Source: Halomicroarcula saliterrae
GTDB lineage: Archaea; Halobacteriota; Halobacteria; Halobacteriales; Haloarculaceae
Reading direction: 5' to 3'
Length of the DNA: 64,000 nucleotides
Assembly (NCBI RefSeq): GCF_031624395.1
Contig: NZ_JAMQON010000004.1
Coordinates: 240,988 to 304,987, forward strand
Below, piece by piece: positions 27,270-29,155 of the stretch. The notes below the pieces were generated by a model. The model did no database searches. It was given only the letters and a program-made list of their open reading frames with translations, and was not told the DNA's origin. Both the position numbers and the translations under genes were made by a program. Position 1 is the first letter of the stretch, and every line of letters begins with the position of its first letter.

Positions 27270-27935
27270 ATGGATATCGCGTTACTCGGCGGCACCGGCG
27301 ACATCGGTGAAGGGCTCGCCCTGCGCTGGGCGGACGACACGAACCACACCGTCATCGTCGGCTCGCGTGACGCCGACAAGGCCGCGGCGAAAGCCGAGGA
27401 GTACGAGGCGGAACTGGACAGCCGCGGCCGCGAAGTCGAGATAGCCGGGCTGGCAAACGAGGACGCCACCGCTCGCGCCGACGTGGTCGTGACGGCCGTC
27501 CCGGCCTACCACCTCACGGACACCGTCGAGGCGGTCGCCGACGAGCTCGGCGACGCTATCCTCGTCTCCCCCGCCGTCGGGATGAAACGCGACGAGGACG
27601 GGTTCCACTACAACCGCCCCGGCGTCGGCAGCGTCACCCAGCTCGCCGCGAAGGCCGCCCCCGATGGGACGCCCGTCGTCGGCGCGTTCCACAACCTCGC
27701 GGCCGGCCGGCTGGCCGACCTCGAAGCGGAGCTGGAGTGGGACACCATCGTCGTCGGCGACGACAGGGACGCGAAGGCGACCGTCTCCGAACTCGCCGAG
27801 GGCATCGAGGGTCTGCGCGCGCTCGACGGCGGCCCGCTCGCCAACGCCGCCGAGGTCGAGGGGCTGACCCCGCTGCTCATCAACGTCGCCCGCCACAACG
27901 ACGGCCTGCACGACCTGGGCGTGCAGTTCCGCTAG
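27270..27935 (+). CDS. npdG: F420H2:NADP+ oxidoreductase-like protein (NpdG)
   Basis: 221 aa. The N-terminal Rossmann motif LLGGTGDIGEGLALRWA is followed by VIVGSRDADKA, the NADP-binding loop. DVVVTAVPAYHLTDTVEAVADEL and GAFHNLAAGRLADLE match the NpdG/F420-dependent NADP reductase family, which transfers hydride between coenzyme F420 and NADP. Haloarchaea make F420, so this is plausible. The gene stands alone, divergent from the GntP gene with 135 bases between, and is followed by the repeat region. Confidence 0.85.
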   Translation: MDIALLGGTGDIGEGLALRWADDTNHTVIVGSRDADKAAAKAEEYEAELDSRGREVEIAGLANEDATARADVVVTAVPAYHLTDTVEAVADELGDAILVSPAVGMKRDEDGFHYNRPGVGSVTQLAAKAAPDGTPVVGAFHNLAAGRLADLEAELEWDTIVVGDDRDAKATVSELAEGIEGLRALDGGPLANAAEVEGLTPLLINVARHNDGLHDLGVQFR

Positions 27936-27971: not shown

Positions 27972-28123
27972 CGACAGCCAGAACGCTCGCTAGCTACTGC
28001 TGCTCAATAGACCCCCGACAGCCAGAAAGTCCCGCTAGCTACTGCTGCTCGACAGGCCCCCGACAGCCAGAACGCCCCGCTAGCTACTGCTGCTCGACAG
28101 ACCCCCGACAGCCAGAAAGCCCC
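27972..28123. repeat. 45-bp tandem repeats, about 3.3 units
   Basis: GCTAGCTACTGCTGCTC starts at 27989, 28034 and 28079, an exact period of 45. Each unit ends with a variant of CCCCGACAGCCAGAAAG. A partial unit (TCGACAGCCAGAACGC) precedes the first. The last unit's end (ACAGCCAGAAAGCCCC) is also the outer stem of the structure at 28108-28364. Because 45 is a multiple of three, one frame reads a 15-residue repeat, but this is unlikely to be a protein. No unique spacers occur, so it is not a CRISPR array. Confidence 0.85.
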
Positions 28124-28364
28124 GCTTGGCTAAATTCGGGGGGCTCGCTGCGCTCCTCACTCGCTACACTCGTTGCGGTGCTTACATCGCCCGCCTTCGT
28201 TTAGCCAAGCGCCCCTTTCAGTCCCGCCCATGCCGGCTGGTCAAACAGCTACGGGCGGGACTGAAAGGGGCCGACCGCTCGACGGCTGCGACTCGCTGTG
28301 CTCCTCACTTCGTTGCGGTGCTTGCGTCGTCTCGCTGCCGAGCGGTCGGGGGCTTTCTGGCTGT
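28108..28364. repeat. Nested inverted repeats forming a perfect four-way junction
   Basis: Four perfect stems abut without an unpaired base at the junction. Stem A: 28108-28123 with 28349-28364 (16 bp). Stem B: 28124-28134 with 28200-28210 (11 bp). Stem C: 28211-28229 with 28253-28271 (19 bp, GCCCCTTTCAGTCCCGCCC). Stem D: 28272-28281 with 28339-28348 (10 bp). The loops of B and D are homologous to each other. The sequence lies between the F420 reductase gene and the J-domain ferredoxin gene. Function is unknown. Confidence 0.85.
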
Positions 28365-28468
28365 ACTGAACCGCTCCAGCAGCACTCACACCACCAAACC
28401 CAACCTTTCCCAGCCGCAATTTGGGGCGATTGCACACAGTTTTTGACGGCAGGGTCCTACGGGCCGGT

Positions 28469-29155
28469 GTGGCGTCCCCATACGAGATTCTCGGCGTCGA
28501 CCCCGACGCGGACGAGGCCGAGATAGTCGATGCCTACCGGGAGCGCGTCAAGGAGACCCATCCGGACCAGGGCGGGTCGACAGAGGCGTTCCTCGCAGTG
28601 AAAACTGCCTTCGAGCGCATCGAGAACGGCTGGCGACCCGGCGACGCCGTCCCGGAGAGCGACGTGCCCGGAGCGCCGACGGGGACCACGGACGCCGACG
28701 AGGCGGCCGGCCCAGCGGAGCCCTCGGAGCCCGAGGGCGTCAGGGTCGAGTATCTGAACTACGAGGTGATGGCGGACAAGCTGTGGGAGCTGACCGACGA
28801 CGACCTCTTCGAGAAGGCGGCCGACGGCGGGCTCACCCCCGAGGACTACGGGGAGTTCTACGTCCGGGACAGCGAGTCGCTGCTGGAGGCCGCCGAGCGC
28901 CAGGGGTACGCCTGGCCCTTCGCCTGTCGAGGCGGGGCCTGCACGAACTGCGCCGTCGCCGTCGTCGAGGGGGAGATGCCCTCGCCGTCGAGCCATATCC
29001 TGCCGAAGGAGCTCCACGACCGCGGCATCCGCCTCTCCTGTATCGTCGCGCCGGAGACGGACGCGAAAATCGTCTACAACGTCAAACACCTGCCGGCGGT
29101 CCAGGACCTCCTGCTTCCGGCCAGCCGGTTCGAGGCGTCGTCGTCGACCGATTGA
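28469..29155 (+). CDS. J-domain/[2Fe-2S] ferredoxin fusion protein
   Basis: 228 aa from GTG 28469 (codes VASPYEILGVD). Residues 1-50 are a J-domain with the HPD tripeptide (VKETHPDQGG) that would stimulate a DnaK ATPase. After an acidic linker, residues about 95-210 are a haloarchaeal plant-type ferredoxin with the cluster ligands CRGGACTNC and a fourth Cys in LSCIVAP. The fusion could deliver or repair iron-sulfur clusters, or simply localise the chaperone. A frame from TTG 28421 extends the N-terminus but lacks support. Confidence 0.83.
   Translation: MASPYEILGVDPDADEAEIVDAYRERVKETHPDQGGSTEAFLAVKTAFERIENGWRPGDAVPESDVPGAPTGTTDADEAAGPAEPSEPEGVRVEYLNYEVMADKLWELTDDDLFEKAADGGLTPEDYGEFYVRDSESLLEAAERQGYAWPFACRGGACTNCAVAVVEGEMPSPSSHILPKELHDRGIRLSCIVAPETDAKIVYNVKHLPAVQDLLLPASRFEASSSTD

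Follow-up and report, generated by a model that had tools for sequence, protein, structure and literature searches.

A class-wide palindromic repeat of Halobacteria: a probable new family of small DNA elements that carry no gene and seem to be recognised by shape

At positions 28108-28364 of the window (the whole stretch of 64,000 nucleotides of Halomicroarcula saliterrae that was analysed), four stems enclose a four-way junction. Related copies are dispersed through the same genome and across the class Halobacteria, their variable stems change with compensation around mismatches that do not change, and the junction arises from inverted pairs of one hairpin. Together these copies have the look of a family of small DNA elements, not described before, that contain no gene and are told apart by shape. 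The window copy is probably one member of an interspersed palindromic DNA repeat found throughout the haloarchaeal class, non-autonomous, gene-free and addressed through its shape. A more specific reading is put forward tentatively, in which a haloarchaea-wide, shape-addressed DNA family has an invariant C3/C3 (G3/G3) loop and replaceable, compensated stems, is spread and remodelled by a class-specific recombinase or replication mechanism, and forms the junction where units stand as inverted pairs.

Results

Architecture and folding of the window element

The element sits between two genes on the same strand, for an F420-dependent NADP oxidoreductase and a DnaJ-plus-2Fe-2S ferredoxin protein. 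The features of the locus are as follows.

27270-27935, same strand as the downstream gene: upstream gene, F420-dependent NADP oxidoreductase (PF03807).
27932-27935, + strand: CTAG including the stop codon of that gene (from the sequence; CTAG outer ends recur).
27974-28123, + strand: tandem A-arm array, copies at 27974, 28018, 28063 and 28108 (spacing 44, 45 and 45 bp).
28108-28364, no strand assigned: complete four-way-junction element in the order A-B(H)-C-D(H)-A' (from copies in relatives and folding).
28108-28123, + strand: left arm of stem A, ACAGCCAGAAAGCCCC, the 16-bp outer stem with core GAAAG and the C-rich loop CCCC of unit 1 (sequence, fold, conserved in 88 copies).
28124-28210, + strand: hairpin B, an H module in + orientation (R1 model match, 100.1 bits).
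28211-28271, + strand: hairpin C, with a 23-nt apical loop (sequence, fold, conserved in copies).
28272-28348, + strand: hairpin D, the second H module (R1 model match, 61.8 bits on +).
28349-28364, + strand: right arm of stem A, GGGGCTTTCTGGCTGT, 16 bp (sequence, fold).
About 28472-29155, same strand as the upstream gene: downstream gene, DnaJ domain fused to a 2Fe-2S ferredoxin domain (PF00226 and PF00111).

By sequence and folding, stems A, B, C and D abut exactly, with 0 unpaired bases at the junction. Stem B was formed by 28124-28134/28200-28210 (11 bp, with T/G at the 12th position), stem C by a perfect 19 bp, GCCCCTTTCAGTCCCGCCC, at 28211-28229/28253-28271, and stem D by 28272-28281/28339-28348 (10 bp). 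RNAfold of 28100-28370 gave -161.5 kcal/mol (z = -10.2), a value equalled by 0 of 200 dinucleotide shuffles, and the opposite strand gave -162.1 kcal/mol (z = -11.9). With DNA parameters, the four-way junction was within 0.7 kcal/mol of the optimum. The branch point is movable by one base pair, because 28123 C pairs alternatively with 28211 G. A sequence-only reading of this DNA had described four abutting perfect stems with no base unpaired at the junction, and the coordinates of all four were reproduced, no shuffle being as stable; its statement that this cannot be chance is supported by the many dispersed copies across the class and by the strong compensation of changes in their stems. The window gave 0 matches to known RNA families in Rfam 15, and a tRNA scan found nothing.

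The unit of the A-arm array is the 16-bp arm followed by a 29-bp spacer starting GCTAGC (45 bp; one unit of 44). As the left A arm of the window element is the last of four tandem copies, the right arm has several possible partners. At other loci, the 45-bp A-arm spacing occurred 23 times among non-redundant pairs. The 45-bp period was seen with unrelated spacers in many other loci, with five A-arm copies in L033 and an array on both sides of the element in L101. Covariation within the 29-nt array spacer is not claimed, its inverted symmetry being weak (0.50 vs. 0.16-0.32 in alternative registers).

The outer ends are inverted and of CTAG or GTGTTTA type, and no target duplication was visible at them by eye. 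CTAG is the motif at which many other copies start or finish, and that at 27932-27935 is the probable left outer boundary of element-derived sequence. Frequently, CTAG outer ends overlap TAG stop codons of adjacent genes, which suggests a CTAG target preference. Outer ends of another class, distinct from CTAG, have the sequence GTGTTTAGTTA / GTGTTTACTTT and lie ~30 nt outside stem A; they were found in the flanks of L064, L106, L107, L118, L135, L139, L141, L145 and L147.

The same junction with other stems in relatives

Among Haloarcula relatives, a gap-free stem A with three perfect hairpins was present in 33 of 88 arm-delimited copies, and a further 9 of the 88 had at most 6 unpaired junction bases. 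Stems A and C keep their sequence across copies; B and D change completely and retain their pairing. In nearly all copies B and D are one hairpin (H) in opposite orientation, D being inverted; by copy comparison and by R1 matches on +, D of the window is oriented like its B.

The closest genomes compared share ~85-90% identity in the flanking genes. At the orthologous site, Haloarcula rara, genome G002, carries a perfect junction. Its B is GACTGGCTCCGG and its D CGCGCTCTCGAC, the window's counterparts being GCTTGGCTAAA and CGACCGCTCG, and all of these stems pair perfectly. A third pair of B/D stems stands at this site in genome G009, in reversed order when read in gene direction; the site is truncated in G007, and the orthologous intergenic region of G001 holds no form of the element. 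Two observations had been named as counting against the sequence-only reading. Stems broken in relatives without compensation were looked for and not encountered. Arms assembled from dispersed repeats in variable order were seen in part: the arms are built of dispersed modules, and window D is flipped relative to nearly all other copies.

Full, truncated, solo-arm or further-nested versions were found at orthologous sites in three Haloarcula-group genomes. Site turnover was seen, together with nesting, remnants and one empty-like site; with one genome per species, the comparison gave no clean pair of an empty and an occupied site sharing the same flanks. Site positions are often common to several species, so many copies may be old.

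A double-hairpin module, GTCGTTCG[CGAGAGAGC..GCTCTCTCG]TGATGA[CGAAA..TTTCG]AACGAC, was inserted within hairpin loops. It is nested inside a copy of itself at G002:C1:1019640-1020340 (L176/L177), and occurs also in L002, L013, L016 and L033.

The hairpin unit

Class-wide flanks delimit the basic unit as one hairpin of ~115 nt with GAAAG..CTTTC ends. It consists of a 5-bp GAAAG:CTTTC stem, a CCC/CCC loop, a covarying pair, a 12-13-bp hypervariable stem and, at the apex, a part in which a mismatch is conserved. The internal loop is 3x3 C.C, or G.G on the other strand. Changes in the outer 5-bp stem are compensated (CAAAG:CTTTG, CGAAG:CTTCG), and loop sequences are conserved class-wide.

Hairpins for covariation were collected by loop motif alone. 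In a fixed register, all 12 pairs were Watson-Crick in 51 of 113 hairpins and 11 of the 12 in another 28; dealing the arms among copies, as a control, gave 1.4 and 2.8 hairpins, respectively. An alignment of 108 hairpins had 93.8% of its cells paired and 553 cells with two-sided changes (164 when shuffled); covariation was 0.643, against 0.176 ± 0.009 for shuffled arms and at most 0.09 when the arms were slid.

Units were found singly in several families, and inverted pairs (H-C-H') give the junction. The CCC of one unit pairs with the GGG of the inverted unit, so that stems A and C form and the four-way junction is gap-free. Two separate unit hairpins, if forced, were ~17 kcal/mol (DNA) worse than the junction (mean of 33 copies). 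On the most plausible reading, the junction is a simpler hairpin unit present twice, in inverted orientation, on either side of the palindromic segment C.

Dispersal and taxonomic range

The window sequence matches ~20 other places in its own genome, and was matched in 44 of the 60 genomes searched, its own counted. The exact A-B-C pattern was found in Haloarcula, Halomicroarcula, Halorussus, Haloarchaeobius, Halovenus and Halobacteriales MAGs. With model R1, the H hairpin (B/D) was found in 228 of 292 Halobacteria genomes and 64 of 77 genera (one genome per species, with a hairpin alignment that started from close kin of the window copy), and in 0 of 85 sampled genomes outside Halobacteria. 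At E<=1e-6, H copy number ranged from 3 to 128 among 30 genomes. Five pattern matches occurred in viral contigs, of which the hairpin model confirmed 0.

A relative of another family (G063) holds ~40 copies with 75-94% identity over some 220 bp, which points to fairly recent spread. These copies align beyond the hairpin, the H unit lying within a longer repeat that has its own conserved ends (L360-L380). The dispersed, class-wide, multi-copy family supports the earlier suggestion of a mobile non-autonomous element, whose movement itself we infer.

Discussion

A structured RNA as an unlikely alternative

Covariation this strong normally signals RNA. If the intergenic element were transcribed, either within a UTR or as a small RNA, and its RNA fold were under selection, then the very strong covariation, the low free energy of both strands and the intergenic position would all be expected. 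The pairs themselves, however, contain few G-U: these made up 23 of ~1,204 paired cells (~2%) in the 12-bp variable stem, most columns of which vary freely. Class-wide they made up 3 of 564 cells, counted in R1 matches that were top-scoring and thus biased to well-paired copies; high G+C could itself reduce both figures. Moreover, H and inverted H' within one element leave no single sense strand, and a match in Rfam is absent.

Orientation to genes also tells against an RNA. Of the 20 sites in Haloarcula regions (1.2 Mb), 19 were intergenic. By home-made gene calls (codon-position G+C, also used for G063), tandem, divergent and convergent sites numbered 11, 5 and 3, resembling all intergenic regions (410, 191 and 135), and unit orientation in tandem contexts of G063 was balanced (4 vs. 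4). Copies are intergenic, without clear gene-orientation bias. A structured RNA, another suggestion of the sequence-only reading, is weakened by the Watson-Crick-only covariation and by this lack of bias, and is an unlikely explanation. A terminator or 3'-UTR role was also rejected, since convergent sites are not in excess in the Haloarcula regions; in G063 they are frequent (13 of 30).

A possible site for chromosome organisation

A regulatory or chromosome-organising DNA site in the manner of BIMEs, binding gyrase or a nucleoid protein or blocking transcription or replication, could have spread passively. Class-wide retention at intergenic positions agrees with such a site, as does an orthologous intergenic position that is often identical. 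Copies per haloarchaeal genome, however, range from 0 to over 100, and the element decays to single arms; both are odd for a site that the chromosome needs, and we regard this role as improbable.

Self-perfecting palindromes

Template switching at replication forks could keep correcting inverted repeats and so give perfect variable stems with no selection on shape. Watson-Crick perfect stems altering on both sides together would follow, and small hairpins nested in hairpin loops fit the same process. Such correction should nevertheless erase the CCC/CCC loop as well as the T.T/G.T mismatch that covarying pairs enclose, and both persist, beside loop sequences conserved class-wide. CCC stands opposite CCC in 46 of 47 hairpins at two of the three positions and in 39 of 47 at the third. 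Within the apical part, column 32/76 is non-Watson-Crick in 107 of 108 hairpins, in a collection whose motif constrains column 76 and leaves column 32 free, and the columns flanking it (31/77 and 34/74) covary. Invariant non-pairing (CCC/CCC, 32/76) beside covarying pairs argues against passive palindrome correction. The invariant mismatches rule it out as a full explanation, and we give the process little credence as the origin of the family; template-switch correction may contribute to the joint change of the arms.

A recombination or resolution site acting as a Holliday-junction-like cruciform is highly improbable: it agrees with the exact four-way geometry of 33 of the 88 copies and with both module orders at one orthologous site, but other families widely carry single units that form no junction, so that the cross does not define the element, no recombinase was found linked to it, and nothing was found that shows the recombination (Holliday-junction) or replication structure first suggested for this DNA.

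Preferred explanation

In the explanation preferred here, that of an interspersed palindromic element recognised by shape, selection on DNA shape is indicated by three features: G-U is nearly absent, copies show no preferred orientation to genes, and they are numerous. The element would act as DNA and be mobilised or exchanged by some factor. While single-stranded during replication or repair it would fold into a hairpin or a cross, and a haloarchaeal protein would read its shape (the invariant loop and mismatches) and not the stem sequence. Whole hairpins would be copied or moved between intergenic sites by this shape-reading protein, and shape selection together with hairpin exchange would hold both arms in step. 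On this view, Halobacteria would have in common an ancient repeat family that has not been described before, probably together with a protein that reads it; what mobilises transposase-free haloarchaeal repeats would become testable with a defined substrate; and one reason why archaeal DNA yields spurious 'structured RNA' predictions would be flagged.

Comparison with known systems

The element is like MITEs in being short and non-autonomous, with inverted outer ends (CTAG or GTGTTTA type). It differs in the conserved hairpin architecture inside, beyond terminal repeats alone; inspection of its outer ends turned up none that match a transposon, and no target duplication was seen by eye. The attC sites of integrons and the ends of IS200/IS605 are folded single-stranded hairpins recognised by unpaired features, not by stem sequence. 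The element may work like these and is not filed as a member: it is interspersed and not arrayed, and no linkage to an integron integrase or TnpA was seen.

No haloarchaeal palindromic repeat of this kind was found in the open-access literature; the archaeal G4 repeats of PMC8044849 concern Methanomicrobiaceae. The nearest described haloarchaeal elements, by description, are the SMRs of Haloquadratum walsbyi, which in the passages devoted to them are ~80-110 bp with identity commonly over 95% within a type, and whose mobilisation without a transposase is called enigmatic (PMC3119063). SMR-A/B and PATEs are likewise haloarchaeal and gene-free; they show no target duplication, as judged by eye for the element here, and they too have inverted ends unlike known transposons and insert into palindromes of other elements (same passages). 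Compensated variable stems and four-way junctions were not found in those passages, a comparison of descriptions and not of the HqIRS40-43/55 sequences (PMC3119063).

REP elements, REPINs and BIMEs are 20-40 bp; as a rule they go with a RAYT (Y1 HUH) transposase and have a GTAG/CGTC tag at one end (PMC3116915, PMC2817692, PMC3733652). No match to Y1_Tnp (PF01797) was found in the window genome or in the element-rich G027, G063 and G258, and PF01797 does occur in some of the genomes where H was not matched (G050, G068, G070 and G086), a pattern that does not support RAYT/IS200 mobilisation. Since neither the window genome nor several genomes rich in the element have the Y1 transposase, membership of the REP-RAYT system is not claimed. 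The unit here is ~115 nt with GAAAG..CTTTC ends, not 20-40 bp with a GTAG/CGTC tag; its stem sequence is free, its shape fixed, and its pairs form a four-way junction. Shared with REPs, REPINs and BIMEs are short, gene-free, intergenic, interspersed high-copy palindromes that stand as mosaics and often as inverted pairs (H-C-H'), and in being an inverted pair of palindromic units the element works like a REPIN or BIME.
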